DNA from: Rhizobium indicum
GTDB lineage: Bacteria > Pseudomonadota > Alphaproteobacteria > Rhizobiales > Rhizobiaceae
Assembly: GCF_005862305.2 (NCBI RefSeq)
Contig: NZ_CP054021.1
Coordinates: forward strand, 4,567,501-4,631,500
Direction of reading: 5' to 3'
Length of the DNA: 64,000 nucleotides
Shown piece after piece: positions 5,818 to 61,202 of this stretch; position 1 is the stretch's first letter; every line of letters starts with the position of its first letter. The translations under genes were made by a program, and so were the position numbers. The notes under the pieces are model-generated. The model saw only the letters and a list, made by a program, of their open reading frames with translations, was not told the origin of the DNA and made no database searches.

Positions 5818-6040
5818 ACCGATGCCGCACCTTGATCCGTTGTGTCTGGGGTCGATGGGTCATCGCACAATTTCGGCCCGAAAGACAATCGGAACCGGAT
5901 GAGTTCGGCGTATCACTTCTGCGGCATTGGCCTGCCATCCGCCGCTATAACCGACAGAGAGATTGTTACGGCCGCGCTAAACCCCTGACATAAACGCGTG
6001 TTACAGCCTCCGCCGGCTGCGGCGTGAGCATGGAGTTTTG

Positions 6041-6823
6041 ATGGACCAGCGCAGGGGCTCCTCATTCGAGGAAATCGACGTCGTCGCAAATTACCGGTAT
6101 CGTCCGCCTTATCCCGATGCCGTCTTTCGAAAGCTTCTGGCGATAGCTCCGCGGTCGGAGCATCTGCTGGATATCGGTTGCGGACCGGGAAAAATCTCCC
6201 GCCCGCTGTCAGGTTCGTTTGCGAGTGTCACAGCGGTCGATCCCTCCGCGCATATGATTGTGCTGGGCAGATCGCTGCCGGGTGGCGGCGCTGAGAATAT
6301 CCGCTGGATAGAAAGTTTCGCCGAGAATTTCCCGACCGATGGCCAGCGCTTCGATCTGACGGTCGCAGCAGCCAGTATTCACTGGATGGATCATGCCAGG
6401 CTGTTTCCGCATCTTCTGGCGAGTGCCGCGCCAGGTCACGTCATGGCGGTGGTTTCCGGCGACGACCCGTTCGAGCCTGCGTGGCTATCGGATTGGCATT
6501 CATTCCTGGGGAAGTGGGTTTCTGAGGTGACCGGCCAGCCTTTCGATCACAGCAGATGGTCCGAGGGCATGCGAAGCTACCAGAGCTATCTTGACCTGCA
6601 TGGCAGCGAGGACTTCATATCGGAGCATCCCTTCGAGCAGAGCGTCGAGGATTTCGTCTCCTGCCAGCATTCGCGCGACACCTTCGCACCTTCGAAACTT
6701 GGCGATCGTATCGCGACCTTCGACACGGAACTCTCTGAATTGCTACGCGCCTATTCGAATGATGATCGGTTGAGCTTTGTCGTATGCACCAGGATTGTCT
6801 GGGGCGAAATCAAGCTGATCTGA
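6041..6823 (+). CDS. Class I SAM-dependent methyltransferase
   Basis: A 260-residue methyltransferase. Motif I is HLLDIGCGPGKISRPL (about 41-56) and the acidic residue ending the second strand is in VTAVDPSAHM. The region continues with DLTVAAASIHWMDH, the motif IV area of the type-11 methyltransferase fold. The substrate is unknown. The ATG at 6041 has GGAG eight bases upstream; a TTG one codon earlier is less likely. It is followed by a palindromic repeat and has no obvious operon partner. Confidence 0.85.
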   Translation: MDQRRGSSFEEIDVVANYRYRPPYPDAVFRKLLAIAPRSEHLLDIGCGPGKISRPLSGSFASVTAVDPSAHMIVLGRSLPGGGAENIRWIESFAENFPTDGQRFDLTVAAASIHWMDHARLFPHLLASAAPGHVMAVVSGDDPFEPAWLSDWHSFLGKWVSEVTGQPFDHSRWSEGMRSYQSYLDLHGSEDFISEHPFEQSVEDFVSCQHSRDTFAPSKLGDRIATFDTELSELLRAYSNDDRLSFVVCTRIVWGEIKLI

Positions 6824-6837
6824 GAAGACACGATGTT

Positions 6838-7130
6838 TGGATTGGGCGTACGGCTTGCTCCCTCTTCTCCCCAGCGGGGGTCCGAAGGACGGGTCGAGAC
6901 CCGCGGCTCGACCCCGGTCGGTGGCCCGAAGGGTCGGATGAGGGGGCCGCACGGCAGGCCAGTCATTATTGCCCTTCGCTTACGCTCCGCGCATTCGCGG
7001 CTTCGCCGCTCACCCCCTCATCGCCTCGCTATCGCTCCGGCACTTCTCCCCGCTGGGGAGAAGAGATTCGTCGCAGCGCAGTGCCCTCTCTCATCCCCGG
7101 TCGCGGGCCATGTGTGAGGCCCGCGACCGG
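6838..7130. repeat. Palindromic mosaic repeat region between convergent genes
   Basis: Gene-free stretch between the methyltransferase and the DnaB-like gene. It contains a perfect 9+3+9 hairpin at 7043-7063 (CTTCTCCCC/GGGGAGAAG) and related GC-rich pieces at 6849-6945 that repeat parts of it (CTTCTCCCCAGCGGGG, GGTCGAGACCC). No coding signal with a plausible start was found on either strand. The composition matches rhizobial intergenic mosaic elements. Confidence 0.65.
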
Positions 7131-7146
7131 ATTCTAATCGGCGTCC

Positions 7147-7860
7147 CTACCGCGCAGCTTGAAACGCGACCTGGCCGTTGTTCAGGAAGCAGGTCTTGTC
7201 GAATAGCTTCAGGTCCAGCGGGTTCGGCAGCCTGATATCGGCGATATCGGGCAAGGGTCTCTCGGATCGCTCGTAGGATCGGTCGATCTGGGAGATGAAG
7301 ACGATGATCAGGCCGCGCTCGCGGGCGAACGCCTTCAGGGTGCGGACCTGGACGGAGAGTTCGGGATTCTCCCGTTTCTGATCGAGCAGTTGGAGATAGT
7401 CGATGACGACGAGGGTGCCGCGCGGGGCTGAGGCCAGTTTTTCCGCGATGTAGCCGGCGCTGATGGCGTCGGAGCCGTCGAATTCAAACAGGTGTTCGAA
7501 TTGCGCCCGATCTACGCCGATGGCGCGAAAGCGATCCTCGACGTTTTCTTCCGTATATTCCAGCGAGAAGAACACACCGGGACGGCCCGATTTCATCGCC
7601 TCGACGGCCAGTTCGAGGCCCATCAGGGTCTTGCCGTGGCCGGGTCGGGCGCCGACGAGCAGGAGATCGCCGGGCAGCAATTGCTGAAACAGCTTGCCGG
7701 CGGGTGCTTCCGCCGCTGCTTTTGCCGCAAGCAGGCTCCAGCCGCCGTAGCCTTCTTCCAGGGCTATGCGGTCGAGCGCCTGGTGCAAGGGTATGTTATC
7801 GGCTCGGGAGAGCTTTCTGGCTTTACGCTTCAGGTGATAGATAGGCGCAGACATCTTCAT
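7147..7860 (-). CDS. DnaB/KaiC-like RecA-fold ATPase (replicative-helicase-like, short)
   Basis: A 237-residue protein carrying only the RecA-like ATPase core. Walker A is GARPGHGKT at 70-78, Walker B is LVVIDYLQLLD at 150-160 and the sensor strand reads FISQIDR at 188-194; these are the DnaB C-terminal motifs. The DnaB N-terminal primase-interaction domain is missing; instead there is a 60-residue Lys/Arg-rich start (HLKRKARKLSR). At about half the length of DnaB it is unlikely to be the replicative helicase. AGGAGG lies just upstream of the start. A small ORF 40 bp upstream is on the same strand and may be co-transcribed. Confidence 0.8.
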   Translation of the reverse strand: MKMSAPIYHLKRKARKLSRADNIPLHQALDRIALEEGYGGWSLLAAKAAAEAPAGKLFQQLLPGDLLLVGARPGHGKTLMGLELAVEAMKSGRPGVFFSLEYTEENVEDRFRAIGVDRAQFEHLFEFDGSDAISAGYIAEKLASAPRGTLVVIDYLQLLDQKRENPELSVQVRTLKAFARERGLIIVFISQIDRSYERSERPLPDIADIRLPNPLDLKLFDKTCFLNNGQVAFQAAR

Positions 7861-7900
7861 TCATAAACCTCCTATTGCGAGCGGTTTTCGCAATCCCTCC

Positions 7901-8086
7901 TTATGCAAGATGCTCGAACAGTCGGTTCGGTTTCAAGTGGCCCCACATGAAGTCTGCTTTCCCGATGGAGGGGGGAGGCGTGGGCTGCGCCAGAATCAGA
8001 TCATAGCGCAGGAACGGCCGGGCGAAAATCGCCAGCGTCGAGTCAGGGCGAAAAGCCGTGCTTCCCGCCCACCGCCGCTTGCTCAT
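7901..8086 (-). CDS. Small hypothetical protein (61 aa)
   Basis: A candidate short gene upstream of, and on the same strand as, the DnaB-like ATPase. The ATG at 8086 is preceded by GAGGAAATCG, a good ribosome-binding site. The product begins MSKRRWAGSTAFRP and ends RLFEHLA, and contains Pro-rich QPTPPPSIGKADF. No known domain is recognised. The evidence is only the ribosome-binding site, codon third-position GC and the operon-like position. Confidence 0.45.
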   Translation of the reverse strand: MSKRRWAGSTAFRPDSTLAIFARPFLRYDLILAQPTPPPSIGKADFMWGHLKPNRLFEHLA

Positions 8087-8167
8087 CGATTTCCTCAAGC
8101 AAAAGCAGAGGGAATTGCCGTAAGCGGCTGAGCGGGAGTCGGTTTCGGGCTCGAGGACACGGCGGCT

Positions 8168-9319
8168 TCAATAATAGGCCGATTTAAACGGGGTCACAGC
8201 GGCACCCATGGCCGAGGCGTCGCTTGCGATTTCGGAGATCACAAGCTTCGGGCGTGGGCGCGGCACGCCGTAGCGGGGGCGGTCGTAGATCTCGGTCCGG
8301 TCTATCAGCATCTGCGCCAGGGCGTAAGGGACCTGGCCGCCGAAGATGATCGACTGCGGGTCGTAGATCGCCCAGATCGCATTGATGAGGCGGTTATAGG
8401 CCGGCGTCACCTCATCAACCCACTCTGTCACTCCCGGCCATTTCCGATCGAAATGCTTGCGCATATAGCTGATCGAGGGAACGTCGACGCCGTTGCGGTT
8501 GAGTTTTTCGATCAGGTACTGCAAGGCCGGCCGGCGCTTGTTTTCCTCGGCGTCGTAGATGCCCGAGAATTCGCCGGCATTGCCGATACCGTTATGCAGG
8601 AGTTCGCCGTTGGTGATCAGGCCGCCGCCGAAGCCGTAATTGAAGCTGAGATAGGCGAAGTGCTTCATGTAACGGCCGACACCGAACATGGATTCGGCGA
8701 TGGCTCCCGTCTTGGCGCCGTTGTGCACCCAGACCGGCTTGTTGAAAAATTCCGACAACAGCGGGCCGAGCTCGATCAGCGACCATTCATGCAGTGGGAG
8801 GGGCGCATTGAAGCGGGTGCCGCTGACGTGAAAGCCGGCAATGGCAAAGCCGATGCCGAAGAAGGCCTCTTCGGAAAGATTGTTCGCCCTCTGGTGCTCG
8901 ATCAGCTGCTCGCGAACGAGATCCAGCGCCTGGGCCATGGTGCGTTCGCGCAGGGCGATGCTGCTTTCGGCCAGCACATTGCCCGATATATCCATCAGGC
9001 AGATGCCGATCACGTCGGTGTTGACAGAGATGCCGCAGGAATAGGCGTAGCGGCCGTCGAGCCTAAGCGTCGGGCTCGGCTGGCCGCGGCCGGCGCCGGG
9101 CTTCGGCGAGCCGAAGGAAACGATGCCGCGCTCCTCCAGCTGGTCGATGATGCGGTAGACGGACTGCTGGGTGAGATCGGTGTGGGCGGTGACTTCCGAC
9201 CGGGAAAGGCCGGGATTGCGCCAGATCAGCTTCAGCAGGTCGCGCTCGTTCGAGGAGACGACGCCGCCGCCTTCGCGCAGGAAGCGCGGCGCGATCAGCG
9301 GCTCCGGAAAATAGGCCAT
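8168..9319 (-). CDS. ROK-family transcriptional regulator of the adjacent Ugp-type operon
   Basis: A 383-residue ROK protein: an N-terminal winged helix (LKLIWRNPGLSRSEVTAHTD, then QQSVYRIIDQLEERGIVS) followed by the actin-like ROK domain (GRYAYSCGISVNTDVIGICL; FGGGLITNGELLHNGIGNAG). The zinc motif CxCGxxGC of many ROK proteins is absent, so sugar kinase activity is unlikely and a repressor role fits. I placed the start at 9319 because AGGAGG lies eight bases upstream; a GTG at 9328 is too close to it. It is divergent from the ABC operon starting at 9528, and two palindromes lie between them. Confidence 0.9.
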   Translation of the reverse strand: MAYFPEPLIAPRFLREGGGVVSSNERDLLKLIWRNPGLSRSEVTAHTDLTQQSVYRIIDQLEERGIVSFGSPKPGAGRGQPSPTLRLDGRYAYSCGISVNTDVIGICLMDISGNVLAESSIALRERTMAQALDLVREQLIEHQRANNLSEEAFFGIGFAIAGFHVSGTRFNAPLPLHEWSLIELGPLLSEFFNKPVWVHNGAKTGAIAESMFGVGRYMKHFAYLSFNYGFGGGLITNGELLHNGIGNAGEFSGIYDAEENKRRPALQYLIEKLNRNGVDVPSISYMRKHFDRKWPGVTEWVDEVTPAYNRLINAIWAIYDPQSIIFGGQVPYALAQMLIDRTEIYDRPRYGVPRPRPKLVISEIASDASAMGAAVTPFKSAYY

Positions 9320-9342
9320 ATCAAACACCTCCTTTCGTCAAA

Positions 9343-9366
9343 AATTACTATCGAGGTGTAGTAATT
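9343..9366. promoter_or_regulatory. Candidate ROK operator (inverted repeat)
   Basis: Arms AATTACTA (9343-9350) and TAGTAATT (9359-9366) are perfect reverse complements separated by 8 bp. The site lies 24 bp upstream of the ROK start, in the divergent control region. ROK repressors bind AT-rich inverted repeats of this kind; direct binding is inferred. Confidence 0.55.
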
Positions 9367-9454
9367 ATTGTTGTCTTCCTGGCCACTTAGCTCATTTACC
9401 CTATAGCAGCAGCCTCGTCCCACGACAAGAGTCATGTGTGCGTCACCAAATTGT

Positions 9455-9469
9455 TACACACTGTGTGTA
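9455..9469. promoter_or_regulatory. Candidate second operator palindrome
   Basis: TACACAC-T-GTGTGTA is a perfect 15-bp palindrome about 60 bp upstream of the binding-protein start. It is followed at 9468-9473 by TAGTAA, which repeats the core of the 9343-9366 site. It may be a second repressor or activator site controlling the ABC operon. Confidence 0.45.
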
Positions 9470-9527
9470 GTAAATCGCCGTCACGGTGCTGGGCATGAAC
9501 CCGGCTATCAAAACAGGCGAGGGCAAG

Positions 9528-10835
9528 ATGAAGATTTCCATTCTCGCGGCTGCGGCCGCGCTGATGGCGGGCGCGTGTTCCGCGCAGGCCGCCAATATCG
9601 AATTCTGGTACGGCAATACCGGCGTTGTCGAAAAGGCGATCCAGGACCAGTGTAAGGCGTTCAATTCAGCGCAGAGCGAGCATCACATTTCCTGCGTCGG
9701 CCAGGGCAGCTATGAAGTGTCGATGCAGAAGGCGATCGCCGCTTTCCGGGCTAAAAACCATCCCGTTCTCATCCAGTTCTTCGATGCCGGCACGCTCGAC
9801 CTGATGCTGTCGGATGCCGTCGTCCCGGTTCAGGACGTACTGCCCGAGGTCAAGTGGGACAATTACATCGCCGGGGCGCGCGCCTATTACGAAACATCCG
9901 GCGGCAAGCTTTTCGCGCAGCCTTACAATTCCTCGACGCTGCTGTTCTACACCAACAAGACCGAGCTTGAGAAAGCCGGCGTCACCAAGACGCCGACGAC
10001 CTGGGAAGAGATCATCGAGGCCGCCCGCAAGCTGAAGGCTTCAGGCCATGAATGCCCCTTCACCACCGACGGCGATACCTGGCGCGTGCTGGAACAGTTC
10101 TCGGCCCGTCACGGTCTGCCGATCGCCTCCGAGCATAATGGCTATGACGGCCTCGACGCCGAATATGTCTTCAACACCACCTTTGCCGCCAAGCATCTCC
10201 AGAACCTGGTCGACTGGCGCAAGGAAGGTCTCGTCAAGCTCGGGACCGATACCAAGGCCGGCAATTTCACCGCCGCCTTTAACACCGGCGAATGCGCGAT
10301 GATGGAGAATTCGTCGGGCTCCTACACCGCGTCCGCCAAGGCTTTCGACGGCAAATACCAGATCACTGTCGGCATGGCGCCGATGTATGAGGGTCATGAG
10401 CGCCACAACACGTTCGTCGGCGGCGCCTCGATCTACATCATGAAGGGCCACGATAAGGCCGAGGTCGAAGGCGCCAAGGCCTTCCTCGATTTCCTGCGCC
10501 GTCCCGAACAGCAGATGTTCCTGACCGCCGCCACCGGCTACGTGCCCGTCACCAACGATGTGATGGATGCGATCGCCAAGAGCGGCGAAGCGAACGCGCC
10601 GAAATATGCAACAGCCGCCGTCGGCATCGAGTCGATGAACCAGCCGCGCACGCCCGATACCCGCGGCATCCGCCTCGGCTTCTACGTGCAGTTCCGCCAG
10701 GTATTCATGGAAGAAACCCAGAAGGCATTCGCCGGCCAGCAGACCATGCAGATGGCGCTCGACAATGCCAAAAAGCGCGGCGACGAGCTGCTGCGCCGCT
10801 TCGAGCAGACCTACAAGGGCGTGAAGCTGCCCTGA
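9528..10835 (+). CDS. ABC transporter substrate-binding protein, UgpB type
   Basis: A 435-residue periplasmic binding protein. The signal peptide is MKISILAAAAALMAGACSAQA, ending A-Q-A before NIEFWYGN. Its body resembles E. coli UgpB along the whole length as I recall it: IAAFRAKNHPVLIQFFDAGT, QPYNSSTLLFYTNK, TGECAMMENSSGS, FVGGASIYIMKG, and GIRLGFYVQFRQVF near the C-terminus. UgpB binds sn-glycerol-3-phosphate and glycerophosphodiesters. I chose 9528 because the signal peptide begins there rather than at 9486. It is the first gene of a six-gene operon whose last two enzymes also point to glycerophosphodiesters. Confidence 0.88.
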   Translation: MKISILAAAAALMAGACSAQAANIEFWYGNTGVVEKAIQDQCKAFNSAQSEHHISCVGQGSYEVSMQKAIAAFRAKNHPVLIQFFDAGTLDLMLSDAVVPVQDVLPEVKWDNYIAGARAYYETSGGKLFAQPYNSSTLLFYTNKTELEKAGVTKTPTTWEEIIEAARKLKASGHECPFTTDGDTWRVLEQFSARHGLPIASEHNGYDGLDAEYVFNTTFAAKHLQNLVDWRKEGLVKLGTDTKAGNFTAAFNTGECAMMENSSGSYTASAKAFDGKYQITVGMAPMYEGHERHNTFVGGASIYIMKGHDKAEVEGAKAFLDFLRRPEQQMFLTAATGYVPVTNDVMDAIAKSGEANAPKYATAAVGIESMNQPRTPDTRGIRLGFYVQFRQVFMEETQKAFAGQQTMQMALDNAKKRGDELLRRFEQTYKGVKLP

Positions 10836-10856
10836 TCGCAAGCTAATCCAACCCCA

Positions 10857-10918
10857 CGCACGGGCGCTCGAAGCGCCCGTGCGTCAGGCACGGGGCGTTC
10901 TCGGCTCGCCCCGTGCCT
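10857..10918 (+). repeat. Two tandem GC-rich hairpins between binding-protein and permease genes
   Basis: First hairpin: 12-bp perfect stem CGCACGGGCGCT/AGCGCCCGTGCG (10857-10868 and 10872-10883) with a 3-nt loop. Second: 12-bp perfect stem AGGCACGGGGCG/CGCCCCGTGCCT (10886-10897 and 10907-10918). Neither has a T-tract, so full termination is unlikely. In ABC operons such structures after the binding-protein gene protect its mRNA and lower permease expression; that role here is inferred. Confidence 0.7.
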
Positions 10919-10941
10919 CTCTTCCAATCCAGGATGCTGCC

Positions 10942-11832
10942 ATGACGTCGGAATCTTCGCTCTTCAACCACCGCTGGCTGCCGCTTCTCCTGGTAGCGCC
11001 GCTGATGTTGCTGATCGCGCTGTTCTTCTATGTGCCTGTTTTTCAGGCCTTTTACTGGTCGTTCTTCCTGGAGCGCCCATTCGGCGGCGGTTCGATGTTC
11101 GTCGGCTGGGATAATTTCGCCCGCGTGCTGTCCGATCCCGAATTCTGGGAGGCCGGCTGGCGTACCGTCATCTTCATGGTGACCGCCTCATCGCTGGCGG
11201 TGCTGATTCCGCTGGTCCTTGCGGTCGCGGCCGACCGGAAGATCCGCCTGGCGCTGCCGGCGCGCAACGTGCTGGTCTGGCCGAAGGGGGTGGCGGGCGC
11301 TTCGATCGGCGTCGTCTTCGCCTTCATCTTCAATCCCTTCGTCGGCATCCTGGCGCCGCTCAACAGCGCTTTTCCCGGCATATGGGCGCCCGGCATCGAC
11401 GGCACGGATGCCTTCATCACGCTGATTGCAGCCCATGTCTGGGGCGGCATCCCGTTCAATTTCGTCATCTTGCTCGCCGGCTTGCAATCGATCCCGAAGA
11501 CCATGCACCAGGCAGCGGCGATGGACGGGACCGGGCCGTGGCGGCGCATCTTCGACGTGCAGCTGCCTCTTATCATGCCGCAGCTCTTCCTGACGCTGGT
11601 GCTCGAGTTCACCGAGAGCGTCACCTCGGCCTTCGCGCTGATCGATACGATCACCAAGGGCGGTCCAGGCGGCTCGACGACTTTGCTCGTCTACAAGATC
11701 TATACCGACGGCTTCACAGGCTACGACCTTTCCGGCGCCTCGACCCAGACGGCGATCCTGATGGTCTTCGTCGTCCTCCTCACCGCCGCCCAGTTCCTCT
11801 TCCTCGGCCGGCGCATCAATTACGAGCGGTGA
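10942..11832 (+). CDS. ABC transporter permease, UgpA type
   Basis: A 296-residue inner-membrane permease. It opens with LLLVAPLMLLIALFFYVPV and has the MalF/UgpA-like organisation of six helices. The cytoplasmic EAA loop reads HQAAAMDGTGPWRRIFDVQLP, which docks the ATPase. The ATG at 10942 follows CAGGATGCTGCC; an in-frame start at 10879 would extend into the hairpin region. It is separated from the next permease by 3 bp and pairs with it to form the channel. Confidence 0.9.
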   Translation: MTSESSLFNHRWLPLLLVAPLMLLIALFFYVPVFQAFYWSFFLERPFGGGSMFVGWDNFARVLSDPEFWEAGWRTVIFMVTASSLAVLIPLVLAVAADRKIRLALPARNVLVWPKGVAGASIGVVFAFIFNPFVGILAPLNSAFPGIWAPGIDGTDAFITLIAAHVWGGIPFNFVILLAGLQSIPKTMHQAAAMDGTGPWRRIFDVQLPLIMPQLFLTLVLEFTESVTSAFALIDTITKGGPGGSTTLLVYKIYTDGFTGYDLSGASTQTAILMVFVVLLTAAQFLFLGRRINYER

Positions 11833-50176: not shown

Positions 50177-51952
50177 TCAGCTAGTCAGGCCAGCCTGCCG
50201 CAGGCCGTCCACAATGCGTTCGAAATCGGCAGGGTTCTTGTAGGGCAGTACTTTGCGCCTGTGTTCCAGGGAATAATCGGGATTGATTCGGAACACTTCC
50301 GCCCACTCACCACGCGCCTCCTCGAAGCGCCCCAGGTGACCATAGCTCGCCGCCAGCAGCACTCGCGAGACGTCTGTGTTTGGATTACGGACGAGCCGCC
50401 GCTTCAGGATGACGACGGCCTCCTCGTACCTGCCTAGCTGAAACATCGCCTGCGCGTAGAAGTGCAGGAACAGGTCCGGGTAATAGGGGTTCAGGGCCAT
50501 TGCCCGTTCGAAATAGGCGAGCGCCTCGGCCGACCTTCCGGCATAGTGCAGTGCGTTGCCGAGATTCTCGTACCCCTCTACAAAATTGGGAGCAAGCGCG
50601 ATCACGCGTTCGGCCTCGGCGATGGCCGCGTCGTGCTGTCGCGAGTGCAGTTTGACGACGCCGAGCGCCCAATGTGCGTAGGGATATTGATCGTCGAGCG
50701 CCACCGCCCGCGTGGCAGCCTCAATCGCCTGATCAAGCGATTTCGACGGCGATTGGCTCCACTGATTTATGTAGGCCAGCCCATGTGTGACGGCGAGGAA
50801 CGCGTAGGCCGGAACGAATTTCGGGTCAAGCTCGATGGCGCGTTGCAACAGTTCCCGGCCCTGCGTGTTTTGCTCTCTCGTCAACCTCCACATGTGTTCA
50901 CGGCCCCGAAGGAAGCAGTCATACGCTTCCAGGCTCTCGGTCTGCTCCGCAGCCAGCCGCTGCTGGTCGCCCTCTCTCAGGTTGAGCGCGAGCGCGCCGA
51001 CAATCTGCTGCGTTACGTCGTCCTGCACGGCAAAGATGTCGGTCAGGTCGCGATCGAAACGCTCCGCCCACAGATGGCCGCCTGATGTCGCGTCGATCAG
51101 CTGTGCGGTGATCCGCACCCTGCTGCCCGATTTGCGGACACTGCCCTCCAGCACGTAGCGCACGCCAAGGCCGCGGCCCACCTCTTGGACGTTCACGTTC
51201 CGGCCCTTGAAGGTGAACGACGAGTTGCGGGCGATGACGAACAGCTGCGACAGCTTCGACAGAGCAGTGATGATGTCTTCGGAGATGCCATCGGCGAAGT
51301 ATTCTTGCTCGACATCACCGCTCATGTTGGCGAAGGGCAGCACGGCAATCGAGAGCGCCGGCGGCGATGCGGCTGGCACGCGACTAGCGGCGGCGTAGGC
51401 GGTCACTGTTGACTTTGCCAGTGCGGCGACGCCGACCTGGAGCGAATAGATCCGAATCGGCTCGGCGATGTTCTTGAGCTGTGTGCTGCCGAGATCGGTG
51501 ACGGAGAGATCGAGCCTCGCCTTGACTTGGCGATAGGCATCCTCCGACAGGCAAATGGCGCCCGGCGCTGCGACGCCCTCCAGGCGCGACGCGATATTGA
51601 CGCCGTCGCCCATCAGGTCACCGTCGCTTTCCTCGACCACATCTCCCAAATGGATGCCGATTCGGAACTCAATACGGCGGTCTTGGGGCACGCCGGCATT
51701 GCGTTCGACCATGGCATTCTGCACCTCGACGGCGCAGCGGACGGCGTCCACCACGCTGCGGAATTCGACCAATGCCCCATCGCCTGTGCGCTTGATCACG
51801 CGCCCGTTGTGCACAGCTATAGTTGGATCGATCAGGTCGCTACGCAGTGCCCGCAACCTCGCCAGAATACGATCTTCGTCCGCGCTCGCGAGCCTGCTGT
51901 ATCCGACCACGTCGGCGGCCAGAATTGCGGCCAGCTTGCGATTCTCGCCCAT
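50177..51952 (-). CDS. Class III adenylate/guanylate cyclase with TPR domain
   Basis: A 591-residue protein. The cyclase catalytic domain occupies about 1-170: metal Asp in AILAADVVGYSRL (D14), then VIKRTGDGALVEFRSVVDAV, GIHLGDVVEESDGDLMGDGV and NIASRLEGVAAPGAICLSED. A linker and a TolB-like N-terminal segment follow (LSIAVLPFANMSGDVEQEYF). From about 330 to the end are TPR repeats (RAIELDPKFVPAYAFLAVTH; RVIALAPNFVEGYENLGNAL; FERAMALNPYYPDLFLHFYA). Rhizobia carry many such cyclase-TPR proteins. It is predicted to be cytoplasmic and to make cAMP; the trigger is unknown. Confidence 0.93.
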   Translation of the reverse strand: MGENRKLAAILAADVVGYSRLASADEDRILARLRALRSDLIDPTIAVHNGRVIKRTGDGALVEFRSVVDAVRCAVEVQNAMVERNAGVPQDRRIEFRIGIHLGDVVEESDGDLMGDGVNIASRLEGVAAPGAICLSEDAYRQVKARLDLSVTDLGSTQLKNIAEPIRIYSLQVGVAALAKSTVTAYAAASRVPAASPPALSIAVLPFANMSGDVEQEYFADGISEDIITALSKLSQLFVIARNSSFTFKGRNVNVQEVGRGLGVRYVLEGSVRKSGSRVRITAQLIDATSGGHLWAERFDRDLTDIFAVQDDVTQQIVGALALNLREGDQQRLAAEQTESLEAYDCFLRGREHMWRLTREQNTQGRELLQRAIELDPKFVPAYAFLAVTHGLAYINQWSQSPSKSLDQAIEAATRAVALDDQYPYAHWALGVVKLHSRQHDAAIAEAERVIALAPNFVEGYENLGNALHYAGRSAEALAYFERAMALNPYYPDLFLHFYAQAMFQLGRYEEAVVILKRRLVRNPNTDVSRVLLAASYGHLGRFEEARGEWAEVFRINPDYSLEHRRKVLPYKNPADFERIVDGLRQAGLTS

Positions 51953-53557: not shown

Positions 53558-53963
53558 TTAATTTGCCCGCGGAACCGGGCAGTCCAGGTCCCCGTCGTTG
53601 CACCTCAGGTAAACCTTGAGCGCCTCCGTGCGGCTTTGAGTCAGGCCGTCGTGGCACGAACTGTTGACGAACGGATAGGCGGTGCCACCCTGGACCGTCG
53701 AGCTTTGGAAATTGCACTCGGCATCACGGAATGCAATCCATGCTTTCTGGGTCGCTACGAGAAGCTTGGTCGTGTCGGCATCATCCTCCAGCCGACCTTC
53801 GATCTCTTTGTAGACCTTGTTCATCTCCGCATCCGACTTCTTCAGGGATTCAGCAGCGCAGATGTTCATGTCTGACTGATTTGTCTTCGCCGCAGTTATC
53901 ATCTGCAAATGCGAACGTTGACGTCGTCAGGACCAAAGTGGCGGACAGCAACAAAATTCTCAT
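53558..53963 (-). pseudogene. DUF1311/LprI-like secreted protein, signal peptide split off by a frameshift
   Basis: The mature domain is clear: NQSDMNICAAESLKKSDAEM, then LLVATQKAWIAFRDAECNFQ and a C-terminal Cys pair (LRCNDGDLDCPV). This is the DUF1311 pattern of small Cys-stabilised periplasmic proteins. A signal peptide, MRILLLSATLVLTTSTFAFA, lies directly upstream in another frame with GAGGTCC before its ATG at 53963. Removing one G near 53888-53893 joins them as FADDNCAKTNQSDMNICA. Family relatives include lysozyme inhibitors. The indel may be a sequencing error. Confidence 0.8.
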
Positions 53964-54305
53964 GATGGACCTCTTTCCGATTGAATGAATATCCAAACAC
54001 CGCATGCCTCGTTGCTGGTTTTAACCCCACTTCTGCTCCCTTCCATCAAGTCGACGTCATCTCACCAATCATTTTCCATGGGTTGGTGACGGTTTCATTA
54101 CCTTGGTACGCCGTGCTGAGCGAGCACGATACATTCCAGTCTTGCAGTCCATTTTCGATCAGCAGGTATGTCGGCCATACCTTGGGCATAACTGGAAGCA
54201 GCTCGCCGATCCGGGAGCCGCTGGCCTGTTATCGAAAAGATATGGACTTGATAGAGGACGCCTCGCTGAGTTTTGCGAGAGTGTCAAACCGAATTCAATA
54301 GAGAA
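53964..54305. other. Gap of about 340 bp with no supported gene
   Basis: Between the DUF1311-like gene and the end of the signalling operon. It is less GC-rich than its surroundings. A plus-strand frame with HNWKQLADPGAAGLLSKRYG looks protein-like but has no start context and no recognisable family; it may be a remnant. No terminator hairpin was found for the operon that ends at 54306. Confidence 0.35.
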
Positions 54306-54644
54306 TCACGCCAAGCGCAAATCGATAAGCGGGTGTAACTTCTTGAGATTCGGCAGTGATTTCGCTTGCCAAGGATATTGGCTGGTGCCTTTGACGACGA
54401 GCAGGAGGTCGTCCATCTTTCTGGCTTCAATCGTCAGCTTGGCCAGGAGATTTATGCCAGAGGAATTGAGGAACTCGAGACCCGTCAGGTTGAACGTGAC
54501 CTGTTTGTGCCCCTCATGAAGCAGGCCTGATATCAATGAATAAATGGGCGCGTAGGCGTCCGGTCCCGCCAGCCGGAATACGCCATCGAAATAGACCTCG
54601 TTTTTCTCAGCCCATACGCGGAAGTTTTCGTCGCTGATTTCCAT
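54306..54644 (-). CDS. STAS-domain protein (anti-anti-sigma-factor-like)
   Basis: A 112-residue single STAS domain, last gene of the operon. The segment NLTGLEFLNSSGINLLAKL (53-71) is the STAS loop-helix. S61 sits where SpoIIAA carries its phosphoserine (D-S-S-G, here N-S-S-G). It should be phosphorylated by the HATPase protein encoded just upstream and dephosphorylated by the operon's PP2C phosphatase. It resembles the slr1659-type group of STAS regulators as far as I can recall. Spacing to the upstream gene is 7 bp. Confidence 0.85.
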   Translation of the reverse strand: MEISDENFRVWAEKNEVYFDGVFRLAGPDAYAPIYSLISGLLHEGHKQVTFNLTGLEFLNSSGINLLAKLTIEARKMDDLLLVVKGTSQYPWQAKSLPNLKKLHPLIDLRLA

Positions 54645-54651
54645 TCTTCGC

Positions 54652-55212
54652 TCACAGATTGGAGGAGGGCGGCATTGCCACGGCTGCAGTTGTCGTCAGG
54701 ATGACACGCTGGTCATTATTGTCTTCGAATGCCCATGCCATTTTTGCGTCGTAATCGCTCAGAAGGGTCAGCAACCCCAAGCCCGAACCGCTTTCTGCCG
54801 ATATGGCATTGGTTTCGATTTGCTCAAGAAGAAGTTCCCCGGGGTCCCTCGATTGAAGGCGATGCAGCAGTTGCTGAAAGCGAGAGGATGTCACGCCATC
54901 GATCGTGTTCTTCACCCTTATTAAAAAAGTACCGTCCAATATGCCGGCTTCAATGAGGATCTCCCCAGGCTGTCGAAACTTGACGGCATTTTCGATCAAC
55001 TCATTGCTGAGATATCCGATGTCATGATGCGCCTGCACATAGTCCTTCCTTGAACGTGAATACCGCAGAGCCATGACTTCCGCTATAAAGTCCGACGTCA
55101 TTCCTGAGTGCTTCCATCCGAGCTGAAGCGGTCCGTCGCTTAACGTGAGGCGAGTGCTTGAATCTAGGCTTATGCCCGTCAGAGATTCGATACCATATAC
55201 CGTTGGCGTCAT
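54652..55212 (-). CDS. HATPase-fold regulator (RsbW/slr1658-like serine kinase)
   Basis: A 186-residue GHKL ATPase-like protein. The N-box is LSNELIENAVKFRQPGE with E71 and N75; the G-box is SGSGLGLLTLLSDYDA (142-150). Both ATP-binding motifs are intact, so it could act as the serine kinase partner of the STAS protein encoded 7 bp downstream. AGGTGAG precedes the ATG and is formed at the 3' end of the phosphatase gene. Residues 1-60 are a less conserved N-terminal part. Confidence 0.82.
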   Translation of the reverse strand: MTPTVYGIESLTGISLDSSTRLTLSDGPLQLGWKHSGMTSDFIAEVMALRYSRSRKDYVQAHHDIGYLSNELIENAVKFRQPGEILIEAGILDGTFLIRVKNTIDGVTSSRFQQLLHRLQSRDPGELLLEQIETNAISAESGSGLGLLTLLSDYDAKMAWAFEDNNDQRVILTTTAAVAMPPSSNL

Positions 55213-55215
55213 GTC

Positions 55216-57570
55216 TCACCTATGTCGCACTGCGAGAAGCGTGATGTCGTCGTAAATCTTCTGCGATCCTATGAAGAGCATTAATGTCGCTATAATTCCG
55301 GCAACGACTTTCTCAGCGCTCTGGTCCTTCAAGCGCAGTGCTTCGCGGCATAGACGTTCGATGCCAAAGAGTTCTCCAGCGTCGTTTTCGGCTTCTGTTA
55401 CGCCGTCCGTATGCAGGAGTATGAGGTCGCCCGTCTCGAAGGTTATTTCGCGGGTTTTAATGAAGGCAGAAATATCGGCTTCCAGCCCGATCGGTATACC
55501 CAGATCCATGGTGTCTATGCGCTCGACCTCGCCGTTCGCCCGCACGACGACAACTTCCTCGTGTTGTCCCGACAGGATCATCTCTTTGCCGTCGTAGTCA
55601 AGAAACGCCAGCGTGAGATGCTTATCGATTTTGGTTCTCACTATGTTTTTAAACAGGGCGCTGTTCAGGTCTGTGAGAAATTTGACTGCATCGGTGTTTC
55701 CTGCTTCCTGCAGGGCGCGGGCGACGGACTGAACCATCAACATCAGCACGCCGCTTTCGAGCCCGTGTCCGGTGACGTCGCCGATGCCAATCTTCAACCG
55801 ATTTCCGCTCTTCAATACGTCGTAATAATCGCCGCCGACTTCTTCTGCAGGTCTCATATAGGCTGCGATCTCAAGGGCCTGAAACTCCTCAAGCTCCTGG
55901 TGCAGCGGAAGAACCATGAGCTGGATCCTCTCGGCGACGGCCAGCTCTGTTCCGAGACGTCGATTTTCTCGCTGGAGCTGTGCATTCAGCGTCGAAATCT
56001 CTTCCTTTGCATCTTCGATTTGAGCTGTTCGCTCTTCGACAAGCTGCTCGAGATTTTCCGTATGATAGCTGATCTGTTCGGCCATCCGGTTGAATGCTTC
56101 ACCAGCCTCGCCGACCTCATCTTTGCTTGTTATGGCCACCCTGACTGAATAATCCTTCGCCTGAATCCGTTTGGCGGCATCTGCAAGTGCACTGATTCCG
56201 CTCGTTATTCGTTTGGAAGCCGCAATTACTGCTATAGCCACAACAAGCAGTGACATTAGGATCGCCAGGATTTGGTAGATCACGATCCGGTTGGTAGCTT
56301 CCGAAATTTTGGCTTGTGCCGCATAGAGGGAGGCCTGGATTTCTCGTTCAGGCACAACCACTCCAAGAGACATCGCCTCTTGCCGAACCGGGCCGCTGGA
56401 CCAGAGATTGGTCGCGGGGAGTTTCTTGACGATAACGATATAGGGGACCTCGTTACCCTCCTGCTGCAACAACAAATGTTGGATGCCCAGTTCGCGATCA
56501 AGGGCCAGTTTTGCTATCGCAGGCTGGGAGCTTCCCTTCAGGGAGCGCTCCAGTCCGGTCACTCCGCTTCCGCTCGCATCGCTCGCAGAACGCAGACCGA
56601 GGGTTTTTTCGCCTGTGCTGTTGATCGCCACAACGTTTCCGTCGGACATTGCGAGAAATCCAAAGCCGGACTGGGCCACTTTCACATTTTCTACAGTCTG
56701 CGCGAGCTGGTCGAGCGTGATGTCCGCGCCAGCCGTCCCGGCGACATCCTTCCTGTCGGCTGTCCATAGTGGTTGAAAGAAAGAAACGATCAGTTTCCCG
56801 GTAATGGCGTCCGTATAGGGCGCTGTCTGGGTTATATCGTCCGCGACCGGCCTCGTTTTCATATCCTTGGCCCAGCCCTGCCAGGACTCATAAAGTCCGG
56901 GAAAAAAGAAGTCCCAGAAATTGGCCTCGTTATGACCAGGATAAAGGCGGTCGAAGGTCTGAGCCTGGTCGGTATAGGGCGCTGTTCTGAAGATTGGTCG
57001 TTCTTTCGATCCGATGTAATACATCTGCAGCTTTGAAGCCCCGTGCTGCAGCAAGCTAGGTGCGACAAGGTCTAGAACCGCGCTGGTCTGGATATCGGTC
57101 TGAACGTCGGGTCTTGGGTTGTGGTCTTCTCCGAGCAAGTAACTCCAGACGCTGACGACGGAGACTGAGCCCGGAGCGTTCTGAGACCAGTTCGCCTTTT
57201 GATCGTAGGACAGGCTGACGCTGCCGGGAGATGTGCGGGCGATCGCCGCGCCGACAACGGAATTACGCTCGGGATCGTCGATCTGCGCCTGGAGCACACC
57301 CGCCAAGGTGCTGACGTCGTTGTGAACCTGCCGCAGGAGCAAACTCACCTGTGCTGCGGTGGAATCGGCATATGTGCGGATGTATTCCTGGCTTGCCGCT
57401 TCCAGACCCTGTCCGACTTCCAGGGTGGCGTCGCGCGACAGCCTCTGAACATTCCAAAGCGCCAGTCCACCGCTGACCAGCAGATCAAAGAGGACAGCTC
57501 CACCGACGACCAAAATGAACTTTGCCCGAAATGAGCCTAGCCTTGCCGGTCTCTTCGATTTCCCGTCCAT
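55216..57570 (-). CDS. Membrane-bound SpoIIE-type PP2C phosphatase with periplasmic sensor and HAMP
   Basis: 784 residues. TM1 lies at about 17-37 (FILVVGGAVLFDLLVSGGLA). A long periplasmic dCache-like domain follows, then TM2 (ILAILMSLLVVAIAVIAASK), a HAMP domain (ALADAAKRIQAKDYSVRVAI) and a coiled coil (NLEQLVEERTAQIEDAKEEI). The C-terminal PP2C domain has the metal sites MRPAEEVGGDYYDV, GIGDVTGHGLESG, HTDGVTEAEN and the final YDDITLLAVR. It should sense an external signal and dephosphorylate STAS proteins. The ATG overlaps the preceding stop by one base (TGATG). Confidence 0.93.
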   Translation of the reverse strand: MDGKSKRPARLGSFRAKFILVVGGAVLFDLLVSGGLALWNVQRLSRDATLEVGQGLEAASQEYIRTYADSTAAQVSLLLRQVHNDVSTLAGVLQAQIDDPERNSVVGAAIARTSPGSVSLSYDQKANWSQNAPGSVSVVSVWSYLLGEDHNPRPDVQTDIQTSAVLDLVAPSLLQHGASKLQMYYIGSKERPIFRTAPYTDQAQTFDRLYPGHNEANFWDFFFPGLYESWQGWAKDMKTRPVADDITQTAPYTDAITGKLIVSFFQPLWTADRKDVAGTAGADITLDQLAQTVENVKVAQSGFGFLAMSDGNVVAINSTGEKTLGLRSASDASGSGVTGLERSLKGSSQPAIAKLALDRELGIQHLLLQQEGNEVPYIVIVKKLPATNLWSSGPVRQEAMSLGVVVPEREIQASLYAAQAKISEATNRIVIYQILAILMSLLVVAIAVIAASKRITSGISALADAAKRIQAKDYSVRVAITSKDEVGEAGEAFNRMAEQISYHTENLEQLVEERTAQIEDAKEEISTLNAQLQRENRRLGTELAVAERIQLMVLPLHQELEEFQALEIAAYMRPAEEVGGDYYDVLKSGNRLKIGIGDVTGHGLESGVLMLMVQSVARALQEAGNTDAVKFLTDLNSALFKNIVRTKIDKHLTLAFLDYDGKEMILSGQHEEVVVVRANGEVERIDTMDLGIPIGLEADISAFIKTREITFETGDLILLHTDGVTEAENDAGELFGIERLCREALRLKDQSAEKVVAGIIATLMLFIGSQKIYDDITLLAVRHR

Positions 57571-58742
57571 CACAGCGGCTTTCGGCCGGAGGCTGCCCAG
57601 ATCGGCCAGCCTGCATAACCCTTGGGGTGAAGAGCAGCAAAGATATGATCTTTGAATCCTTGCCGGAACCTGCGAATGAAATCTGACGAGTCGCCCCGTC
57701 GAACAGCCATCTCACCCGCGTAGACATTTTCCCATGCTTCGATGATGTCTGCGAAGTCCTGGGGATCCCCGTCAAGATTCGTGACCATAAATGAATCGAC
57801 CTTGATGTTATCGAACCCCGCGTCGGCGAGGAGGTGGCGGCTTTTCGGCCCCATCTCGACATCCATGTCGAAGTGCCTGAACAGTTTGGCGACTTCTTCG
57901 TAAGTCCATCTTATGGATTCAGCATGTGGCTCGCCCAGACAATGCGAGTTTTTTTCGTTGGTGATGTAGACACGGCCGCCAGGCTTGCAGATGCGGTAAA
58001 GCTCCCTGAGCAGCATCTCGGGACGGTTGAAAATCTGCAGCGAATGTCGGCAGGTCACAAAGTCAAATTGATTGTCTCGCAGCAGCATTTGGGAAGCGTC
58101 GCCATAGGTGTACTCGATTCCCTGCAGATCGAAGTCGGCCGCGACCCTGCGGGCATATTCGAGGCTACGCACGGAATGATCCAGCGCGACAAGGCGTGCC
58201 GGTCTAAATTCCCGTTGAACCAAGGCGGCGAAATCACCAATTCCGCAACAGATATCTGCGATGACAAGACCGCTGCGCAGGCCGTGGCGAGGCAACAGTT
58301 CGCGTTCGTGCCTCCATGTCATTTTCGTCTGGGTGCGCAGAATGGGAATGAAAGTCTCATCCTCGACAAAGCTCTGGCCCGGATAAAATGCCGAATCGTA
58401 GACTTCAACCGACAGGCTTGGTTGTGATGCCGCCAGCGTTTGGAATAACGAGGTCGACCATGCCACCACGCTCGACGTAATGATGACGATCTTCCGTTCC
58501 GGTCTGATCCGGCAACTTGCCGCGAGTATATCGGCCAGGGCCGCGAAGGCAGTCATGTTGATGTGCGTCAGACGTTTGACATTGACGTAAACGACCCCAC
58601 TGTATTTTTCCAAACTTTGCTGCACCAGCTTGAGGGCATCGGCAATTTCAGTGGCGCTTTCAGGCCGCATCTTGCCAGACAGCAACAGCTCCTGATTTGT
58701 CGGATCAAAATGAACAGTGAAGGGTAGGGGAAGCAGGCTCAT
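57570..58742 (-). CDS. STAS-domain / SAM methyltransferase fusion protein
   Basis: A 390-residue fusion. Residues 1-125 are STAS-like (MRPESATEIADALKLVQQSL; VNVKRLTHINMTAFAALADI). The phosphosite position reads N62-M-T64-A, so the usual Ser is absent and only a Thr is nearby. From about 140 there is a class I methyltransferase: motif I VIADICCGIGDFAALV (160-175), motif II LVALDHSVRSLEYARRVA, motif IV FDFVTCRHSLQIF and motif VI KPGGRVYITNEKN. The methyl acceptor is unknown. Overlaps with both neighbours (ATGA and TGATG) show tight coupling to the partner-switching genes. Confidence 0.88.
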   Translation of the reverse strand: MSLLPLPFTVHFDPTNQELLLSGKMRPESATEIADALKLVQQSLEKYSGVVYVNVKRLTHINMTAFAALADILAASCRIRPERKIVIITSSVVAWSTSLFQTLAASQPSLSVEVYDSAFYPGQSFVEDETFIPILRTQTKMTWRHERELLPRHGLRSGLVIADICCGIGDFAALVQREFRPARLVALDHSVRSLEYARRVAADFDLQGIEYTYGDASQMLLRDNQFDFVTCRHSLQIFNRPEMLLRELYRICKPGGRVYITNEKNSHCLGEPHAESIRWTYEEVAKLFRHFDMDVEMGPKSRHLLADAGFDNIKVDSFMVTNLDGDPQDFADIIEAWENVYAGEMAVRRGDSSDFIRRFRQGFKDHIFAALHPKGYAGWPIWAASGRKPL

Positions 58743-59290
58743 CGGAAGTCCTCGACCGAGGGGAAATCCGCAATGATTTGAATCTCTTGTTCGCCGTCTT
58801 GCTCAATTCGGATCGTGGCGCGGAATATTGCTGCCAAATCTCTGAGCAAAACCGTCCCATCGGACTTCGTGACCACGAATCCAGAGCCGGCGCCTGGGAC
58901 AGTCTGGTGTTCGCTTGCTCTCGCATCCATGTGCTTTCGGCCAAATGCTTCCTCGCAAGGAAACGCAATTCTCAGCCGATTGAATGTCGCATTCCGGTAG
59001 AGACTGAACCTTATCCTTCCCAGCTCGCTCGTCGAACGGAAAGCAAGTTCGATGAACTCGTTCGTCGCGACGGAAAGAAAATTGGAATATCGAGCGGGAT
59101 CGCTGTGACCTTGGCCGAGAATGTCTGAGAGATATTCGGTAATCCCGTCGCAAAACTGCCATCGGGATTTGAACATCGCAACGTCCAGTTCCAGCGATAC
59201 CATCGGCGCAAATGCATGGTCATCGAAGCTAGCTGCTTCCTGTTCCAATACACCCTCCCTTCTTTTGCCTGGGGCGTCAGGTTGATGCAT
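58739..59290 (-). CDS. Degenerate HATPase-like protein paired with the STAS-methyltransferase
   Basis: A 183-residue protein. SNFLSVATNEFIELAFRSTS (69-88) aligns with the N-box of the HATPase at 54652 (LSNELIENAVKF), but the Asn that coordinates Mg-ATP is Leu here (L82). The G-box region is also poor (PGAGSGFVVTKSDG). It therefore probably cannot bind ATP in the standard way and may be a pseudokinase-type partner. The stop overlaps the STAS-methyltransferase start by ATGA. The assignment rests on this alignment alone; otherwise it is a hypothetical protein. Confidence 0.6.
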   Translation of the reverse strand: MHQPDAPGKRREGVLEQEAASFDDHAFAPMVSLELDVAMFKSRWQFCDGITEYLSDILGQGHSDPARYSNFLSVATNEFIELAFRSTSELGRIRFSLYRNATFNRLRIAFPCEEAFGRKHMDARASEHQTVPGAGSGFVVTKSDGTVLLRDLAAIFRATIRIEQDGEQEIQIIADFPSVEDFR

Positions 59291-59323
59291 GCCATAGCTA
59301 AAGGCACGGCGAAAATCGGTTGT

Positions 59324-60979
59324 TCACTGTGGTAGCGCTGGGCTTGCGGATGTGTCCGCCCGGGTGATGAATTCGCCAATCGCCTGGACCGGAAGCGGCC
59401 TGCTAATCAAATAGCCTTGAAGTCTGTCGCAGCCCACACTGCGCAACCATTCCGCCTGACCTGGCGTTTCAACCCCTTCGGCCGTCACCTGCATGTCGAG
59501 GTCATGTGCGAGGTTAACGATGCAGCGGACGATTGCCTGGCTTTTCAGATCGCTTTCGAGGTCGGTGATAAAGTATTTGTCGATTTTGATCGTGTCGAAC
59601 GGGAATGTCTTCAGATAGCTGAGCGAAGAATATTCGGTCCCGAAATCATCAAGCGAGATTCGTATCCCTAGCACGTTGAGCGTATTCAAGGTGTCGATAT
59701 TGTTGACGGTGCGCTCAAGCAGCACGCTTTCGGTTATCTCAAGCTCCAGACGGTCTGGCGGCAACCCGATCAAGTCCAGCGTTTGGGATACGCGATCGGT
59801 GAGGCCGTTTGTCAAGAATTCAGCCGCGGACAAATTGACCGCGACGATGTAGTTCTGCGGCCACTTCATTGCCTCGCGACATGCCTGCTCCAAAACCCAT
59901 GCCCCTATTTCCGGCATTATTCCATCGGCCTCGGCCATCGGAATAAATGCCGTTGGTGGGATTTTTCCAAGTAGAGGGTGGTGCCATCTCAGCAATGCTT
60001 CGAAGCCGACAATGCTGCCGCCCTCGGCGATGGGTTGGTACTCAATAGAGAATTGTTGCTGGACCAGGGCCATGCGAAGGCTGCGGCGCAGCAGTTCGCG
60101 TTGTTCCAGCAACTCAAGCATTGAGGGATCAAACGGTCTTGCACGACCGCGCCCGTCCTTCTTCGCGGCGTAGAGTGCGACGTCGGACGCCTTCATCAGC
60201 TGCTCCGGACTTGTACCGTCCGGTGGAGCAGCAGATATGCCGATACTGGCACCGACAAATAGCGCGATGCCATCTATCGTGAAGGGTTTTTTGAATGCAT
60301 CAACCAAAGCTTCTGCTAACTGGTGTCCTTTGGCGGGATGTCCTGGGCCTCTTGATATGACGGTGAATTCGTCACCCGCCAGTCGATAGGCTCTGTCGTC
60401 CCTGGCAAGGCACCCTTGAATGCGGCTTGCAGCGAGCTGAAGAAGCTTGTCGCCTGCCGGATGCCCAAGCGTGTCGTTGACGGGTTTGAAATCGTCAAGA
60501 TCGAGTTGCATCAGGGACAGAGTCTCGTTCGAGCCTGTGGTCTCTCGTAACAACACAGCGAGGTCCTCGCTGAACTGGCGTCGGTTCGGCAGTCCAGTGA
60601 GCGGATCGTGGGTGGCCAGATGCAAAAGAGTTGCGCGCTCATCGTCGATAGATTCCTCGGACCGAACCACGGCAAACAGATCTCCGATCCGATAGATCGT
60701 CAGTCCGTGCGACGCGGGCGCGCCAAGATCCCCCGATATTTGCAAGGGTTGGGCACTGTCGCCCAATGAACGGAGGGCGAGTGTAATCGCCGATTTGTCC
60801 AATTCAGGAAAATGCTCCCAAAACGACGCTGCTGGTTTGACAGAAGCAGGCAGCTCATTGCCGAGCAAATTCTCGACGGGATTGAAATCGCGATCAAAGA
60901 ACAAAAGCCGGTCGATTGAGCTCGAAGTTTTTGCCTCTGTTTGTCCGAGCGCCGAGGGGGCAGCATGAATTTTCCGCAT
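59324..60979 (-). CDS. GGDEF-EAL protein (diguanylate cyclase/phosphodiesterase)
   Basis: A 551-residue soluble protein, first gene of the operon. A PAS-like N-terminal part (about 20-110) precedes GGDEF (THDPLTGLPNRRQFSEDL; RLAGDEF with AGDEF at 201-205). No RxxD inhibitory site is present (RDDR). The EAL domain has FEALLRWHHP (EALLR 327-331), NLSAAEFL, ELEITES, DDFGTEYSS (usually DDFGTGYSS; E449) and KIDKYF, TAEGVET. Both activities look possible, with the E449 change in loop 6 a query. I chose 60979 over 61003 because GGGAGGG lies upstream. The next gene starts 33 bp later. Confidence 0.92.
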   Translation of the reverse strand: MRKIHAAPSALGQTEAKTSSSIDRLLFFDRDFNPVENLLGNELPASVKPAASFWEHFPELDKSAITLALRSLGDSAQPLQISGDLGAPASHGLTIYRIGDLFAVVRSEESIDDERATLLHLATHDPLTGLPNRRQFSEDLAVLLRETTGSNETLSLMQLDLDDFKPVNDTLGHPAGDKLLQLAASRIQGCLARDDRAYRLAGDEFTVISRGPGHPAKGHQLAEALVDAFKKPFTIDGIALFVGASIGISAAPPDGTSPEQLMKASDVALYAAKKDGRGRARPFDPSMLELLEQRELLRRSLRMALVQQQFSIEYQPIAEGGSIVGFEALLRWHHPLLGKIPPTAFIPMAEADGIMPEIGAWVLEQACREAMKWPQNYIVAVNLSAAEFLTNGLTDRVSQTLDLIGLPPDRLELEITESVLLERTVNNIDTLNTLNVLGIRISLDDFGTEYSSLSYLKTFPFDTIKIDKYFITDLESDLKSQAIVRCIVNLAHDLDMQVTAEGVETPGQAEWLRSVGCDRLQGYLISRPLPVQAIGEFITRADTSASPALPQ

Positions 60980-61202
60980 GTCCGAGGCCCTCCCTAGTCT
61001 CATGTCATAACCAGATATTGTAGCAAATCAGCCCCCGCACAACTTGTGCACGCCAAGATTTACATTAGGCATTTCTGATTAACAATCCCCAACCTCTGCC
61101 CAACTCGCTCACGGATGGGCTTATGCCACGTCTTTATTACCGCGACCCATTTGCATCCATCGCCTCGGCGGCGACCCTTCGATGAACTGAGGGCAGGGGA
61201 TC

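Follow-up and report, generated by a model that had tools for sequence, protein, structure and literature searches.

The six-gene operon on the minus strand at positions 54306..60979 of a 64,000-nucleotide stretch of Rhizobium indicum DNA (contig NZ_CP054021.1; the whole stretch is referred to here as the window) is, by inferred orthology, the form that the bgrRSTUWV operon of Sinorhizobium meliloti takes in the Rhizobium leguminosarum group. Our best explanation of the whole, to which we assign a probability of roughly 85%, is that the operon encodes a working phosphorylation switch acting on a GGDEF-EAL enzyme, together with a pseudo-pair made up of a degenerate HATPase and a STAS-methyltransferase. 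The operon is conserved and already described, and its cyclic di-GMP (c-di-GMP) read-out is already known. One paper describes, in its accessible text, an S. meliloti partner-switching system, BgrSTUWV, that modulates the diguanylate cyclase BgrR (PMC8457831). Another, likewise in its accessible text, places the system in mixed-linkage beta-glucan synthesis, with BgrU and BgrW controlling BgrV phosphorylation and through it BgrR (PMC7647112). An earlier note, made from the sequence alone, had proposed a partner switch that has no sigma factor gene beside it and c-di-GMP as a possible output; that arrangement is the one reported in these two sources for S. meliloti, so the output is not the unusual one that the note had supposed. 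The accessible parts of three further papers, which mention the target protein BgsA or cite the primary Bgr paper, Baena et al. (2019), do not name the Bgr proteins (PMC9495663, PMC8546604, PMC6628131).

Read 5' to 3', the six open reading frames (ORFs) encode a GGDEF-EAL protein (GE, BgrR-type; 59324..60979, with an alternative upstream ATG at 61003), a 183-aa degenerate HATPase that is a probable pseudokinase (H1, BgrS-type; 58739..59290), a STAS-methyltransferase fusion (SM, BgrT-type; 57570..58742), a membrane PP2C phosphatase with dCache-like sensor, HAMP and SpoIIE domains (PP, BgrU-type; 55216..57573, starting at GTG 57573 or ATG 57570), an intact HATPase as the putative switch kinase (H2, BgrW-type; 54652..55212), and a putative STAS phosphoprotein (ST, BgrV-type; 54306..54644). 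With starts at 60979 for GE and 57570 for PP, the intergenic spacing is 33, -4, -1, 3 and 7 bp. The six minus-strand genes, their spacing and their domain make-up had been given in this form by the earlier note, and ORF calls and family searches confirmed them. The same genes, order, strand and domain make-up are found in S. meliloti 1021, and the order is also that of the annotated strain Ak57. Identity to the S. meliloti 1021 proteins ranges from 30 to 71%: 59% for GE (506 aligned positions), 70% for SM, 71% for PP, 52% for H2, 59% for ST and only 30% for the degenerate HATPase. We take bgrR to be SMb20447, the first gene of an operon ordered R-S-T-U-W-V, and unphosphorylated BgrV reportedly inhibits BgrR. 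The S. meliloti 1021 operon lies on pSymB, whereas the window operon sits on a contig that exceeds 4.6 Mb and is probably the chromosome, in a host genome of 7.53 Mb in six contigs that is rated 100% complete. The single SpoIIE match of S. meliloti 4H41 has the coordinates of PP in this operon, a position that fits the identification of PP as BgrU.

The genes occur together more often than chance would allow. A contig scan with SM found 218 relatives, among which the best 80 were kept; this set leans toward close relatives because it was ranked by similarity to SM, and within it the closest SM of a named genome is that of R. johnstonii 3841 (98%). Together with 17 regions around matches of class and order searches and with S. 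meliloti 1021, these gave 98 loci, none with identical SM and PP. The full order GE-H1-SM-PP-H2-ST, on a single strand, is present in 84 of them, and 13 have H1-SM-PP-H2-ST in the same order and on a single strand without an adjoining GE; the remaining locus (L049) stops after PP at a contig end. The SM alignment does not include L111, and the alignments of the last three genes lack L049 because of its contig end; R. tropici CIAT 899 (L159) is outside the set. The flanking genes differ between loci. SM was detected in 4 of the 385 genomes searched at class level and in 21 of the 397 searched at order level; both counts include the host genome, and no more than four candidates were scored in each genome.

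Judged from sequence, the operon has one working switch, not two, and its components are PP, H2 and ST. PP matches SpoIIE at 127.6 bits and HAMP at 47.3 bits, both over the Pfam cut-offs, and dCache_1 at 30.9 bits, below the cut-off of 45. The Asp residues of its four phosphatase motifs are kept in 98/98 sequences, and in a search confined to SpoIIE (PF07228) among the PP2C families it is the sole match in the 7.5 Mb genome. H2 falls below the Pfam cut-off for HATPase_c and found zero matches in a PDB sequence search; it passes the slr1658_superfam model NF047703 at 168.4 bits (cut-off 100). The N, E, E and N of its NELIEN box are invariant (98/98) and the SGxG motif is kept in 96/98. ST passes the companion model slr1659_superfam NF047705 at 122.2 bits (cut-off 100), with an NSSG motif that is likewise invariant in 98/98. 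The one slr1658 match and both slr1659 matches of the genome lie within the operon.

In the proposed mechanism, the BgrU-type phosphatase would sense a periplasmic signal by means of its dCache-like domain and dephosphorylate the BgrV-type STAS protein, presumably at the NSSG site, and the BgrW-type HATPase would phosphorylate it again. The phosphorylation state of the BgrV-type protein would then set the activity of the BgrR-type GGDEF-EAL enzyme and with it the local c-di-GMP level. The part reported for S. meliloti, in the accessible text of PMC7647112, is the action of phosphatase and kinase on BgrV and thereby on BgrR. The BgrS-type HATPase and the BgrT-type STAS-methyltransferase would be a diverged copy of the kinase/STAS pair without a phosphorylation cycle of its own, with the pseudokinase most likely acting on the STAS domain of the methyltransferase to hold or gate the enzyme.

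The two proteins of this second pair differ from H2 and ST in their family matches. H1 has no Pfam match above cut-off and scores only 14.6 bits in the slr1658/slr1659 superfamily search, and the STAS part of SM scores 34.7 bits; both fall short of the cut-off of 100 that the window kinase and STAS protein pass. The magnesium-binding Asn of the N box has been lost from H1 in 99/99 sequences, and the G-x-G pattern remains in only 13/99. Its predicted fold is SpoIIAB-like, a match that came from fold comparison, with zero matches in a PDB sequence search. H1 is probably a pseudokinase, and its partner is most likely the STAS-methyltransferase. Relatives of H1, including that of Ak57, the gene at L158 8477-8995 and many named ones, are annotated as 'ubiquinone biosynthesis methyltransferase UbiE'; the window H1 matches no methyltransferase family, and the label was perhaps copied from the neighboring gene.

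SM is probably a catalytically live enzyme that resembles small-molecule rather than DNA methylases. It matches Methyltransf_11 at 67.9 bits, its S-adenosylmethionine (SAM) motif DICCGIGDF is kept in 98/98 apart from I/V exchanges, and several family-specific motifs are nearly invariant. Its neighbors by sequence and fold (structure model with mean pLDDT 83.7) belong to the class I methyltransferases and include 3mgg, which is unassigned, LahSB, phosphoethanolamine methyltransferases and RebM. The best 25 of 42 NCBIfam matches and the best 50 of 1755 fold matches are class I enzymes, mostly acting on small molecules, with weaker matches to rRNA and release-factor methylases. The earlier note had envisaged an effect on the methylome; these family matches point elsewhere, and a DNA methylase read-out was rejected on them, no DNA methylase being among the 14 Pfam families matched at E up to 1. 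A literature search, whose coverage left out most subscription journals so that a publication may exist, returned nothing on the methyltransferase.

We used evolutionary rate covariation to ask which parts belong together, with 42 GE-bearing representatives, 81 branches and 10 protein parts forming 45 pairs. Of the 45, the pair formed by H1 and the SM STAS part was the strongest (rho 0.51, p 1e-6). Within the presumed switch, the values were 0.35 for H2 with ST, 0.32 for H2 with the phosphatase domain of PP and 0.26 for ST with that domain; the GE N-terminus covaried with ST (0.28) and with H1 (0.27). The two sets appeared unlinked, with 0.11 for H1-H2, -0.10 for H1-ST, -0.08 for SM STAS-ST and -0.10 for SM STAS-H2. 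We do not lean on the H2-ST value, a correlation that third codon positions give just as strongly (0.40) and that may therefore reflect linkage only. With all 53 ingroup taxa, H1-SM STAS reached 0.49, and PP-H2 (0.47) and the SM methyltransferase part with the PP sensor (0.44) were about as strong. This covariation favors, without proving it, a pairing of H1 with SM that is separate from the PP-H2-ST set.

Several observations weigh against the bgr-type explanation or parts of it. The names BgrS and BgrT were assigned by gene order only. For H1 and SM STAS, a correlation of 0.23 (p 0.04) persists at third codon positions, the main correlation drops to 0.33 (p 0.06) and 0.23 (p 0.1) in the two halves of the tree, and over 53 taxa H1 also correlates with H2 (0.32) and ST (0.29). 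At the aligned STAS acceptor position the window SM does carry a Thr (Thr64), as do 83 of 98 sequences; the other 15 have neither Ser nor Thr there. The EAL catalytic residues of GE are kept in 86/86, so the enzyme could also degrade c-di-GMP. Finally, the window genome (G000) has no orthologue of the S. meliloti target BgsA, the best match being a cellulose-synthase-like protein of 33% identity.

This last point was followed across genomes, with BgsA taken as the S. meliloti 1021 protein at L173 15636-17642. That protein has glycosyltransferase 2 and cellulose-synthase Pfam matches, an HlyD-like neighbor and FxVTxK, TED, QxxRW and HLHY motifs, and it contains all five BgsA residues given in the accessible text of PMC5567048 (R605, D608, Y633, G635 and R656) at a constant five-residue shift. 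Of 25 genomes searched, 12 have GE in the operon, and six of these carry a BgsA orthologue (78-97%); none was found in the 13 without GE. One of the six, G661, has a BgsA-like gene with one internal stop (G661:C13:177092-179095), and in G567 there are BgsA-like pieces (G567:C95:37812-38374) as well as a full-length copy on contig 109. BgsA is therefore not a general output of the operon, and c-di-GMP made in the window genome must act elsewhere.

The alternative that survives best makes the methyltransferase the main output of the switch, or its ancestral one. Here the switch would control methylation of a small molecule or protein through the pseudokinase, and c-di-GMP control would have been added later, in the line of the Rhizobiaceae family f1 and family f221. 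We regard this as possible, with odds clearly below even. It draws on the 13 of 98 loci, from three other families (f77, f196 and f213), that hold the five genes without an adjoining GE, on the near invariance of the SAM motif and several other SM motifs, and on the SM acceptor position, which is Val in 12/12 aligned loci lacking GE and Thr in 83/86 with GE. However, the presence and absence of GE form a single split in the tree (support 100 for the GE-bearing clade and 55 for the clade without it), so that gain cannot be told from loss and the Thr/Val contrast, being one event, was not used as statistical evidence. Furthermore, loci L154 and L160 have a kinase and a STAS protein with no match to the pseudokinase or to the full STAS-methyltransferase; the distant L154 encodes a kinase, a STAS protein, a solute-binding protein and a SpoIIE phosphatase. 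Since the five genes are kept together and GE adjoins them in one lineage, the broader unit consists of the five, with GE as a partner specific to that lineage. Tentatively, a five-gene switch with a pseudokinase-gated methyltransferase may be older than the c-di-GMP link, GE may have joined once toward the Rhizobiaceae, and the c-di-GMP arm may serve another target in strains lacking BgsA.

Of the 13 loci without GE, 9 have a further SpoIIE phosphatase gene, shorter than PP, in the vicinity by Pfam search, and the other four have no match to our own phosphatase model. At L117 (7769-14931) the five-gene core stands beside a second SpoIIE gene, the first genes of a type VI secretion cluster (tssA, sheath and baseplate) and genes for STAS and HATPase_c_2 proteins; L118 (6323-10068) resembles this arrangement by ORF similarity only.

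It is less likely that GE acts mainly as a phosphodiesterase in Rhizobium, with a switch that lowers c-di-GMP. GE matches Pfam GGDEF at 147 bits and EAL at 243 bits, and no conserved RxxD product-inhibition site is found in the 86 aligned sequences. The retained EAL residues would suit such a role, and the best NCBIfam matches of GE are phosphodiesterase models, all below their cut-offs. Against this, the AGDEF motif is likewise kept in 86/86, and for the S. meliloti protein the accessible text of PMC8457831 and PMC7647112 uses the name diguanylate cyclase.

The earlier note's suggestion of two parallel phosphorylation switches sharing one phosphatase is very unlikely. The two HATPase and two STAS proteins, the Thr at the SM acceptor position in the window copy and in most relatives, and a single SpoIIE phosphatase in the genome would all accommodate it, but H1 has lost the magnesium-binding Asn in every sequence and mostly the G-x-G pattern, and the SM acceptor position is not Ser/Thr in 15/98; on residue loss we rejected it.

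Classic partner switches control a sigma factor, which in RsbUVW/SpoIIA-type systems is linked to them. Slightly more improbable still is that this switch controls one encoded elsewhere: the genome has 22 Sigma70_r2 matches, the nearest about 67 kb from the operon, but in a search restricted to Sigma70_r2, which excludes sigma-54, the window has none, in agreement with the earlier note, and the reported S. meliloti output is the cyclase (accessible text of PMC8457831 and PMC7647112). A precedent on the other side is Pseudomonas aeruginosa, where, in the accessible parts of the source, HsbR-HsbA acts on RpoS and FlgM. In that HptB-HsbR-HsbA/HsbD system, too, a diguanylate cyclase has an anti-anti-sigma (STAS-type) protein as its interaction partner, and the system is tied in addition to RpoS and FlgM.

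Identity with the SiaABCD system of P. aeruginosa was rejected: the window proteins score 114 against a cut-off of 700 for SiaA, 22.9 against 85 for SiaB and 98 against 290 bits for SiaD, and the only match to SiaC (DUF1987, PF09345) is one of 15.6 bits in the STAS part of SM (cut-off 24.5). To our knowledge SiaD has no EAL domain. In the cyanobacterial slr1658/slr1659 pair on a Kovacikia minuta plasmid (L160, one record), no match to the phosphatase or GGDEF-EAL models was found in 16.5 kb. There, at 5213-11205, the pair is flanked by genes for SulP-type transporters that carry STAS and cyclic-nucleotide-binding domains, which hints at a transporter partner.

Elsewhere in the window, at 53558-53988, downstream of the operon, a signal-peptide-like start precedes a short ORF with which it shares no open frame, and an ORF at 50177-51952 resembles, by eye, an adenylate/guanylate cyclase with TPR repeats.

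The identification ties the R. indicum operon to a studied one and marks the pseudokinase and the STAS-methyltransferase as the uncharacterized members of an already known circuit. Because the five genes stay together in loci without the c-di-GMP gene, it would be wrong to write off the methyltransferase arm as a passenger. Operon-bearing strains that lack BgsA, R. indicum among them, are natural test cases for other outputs of the switch.

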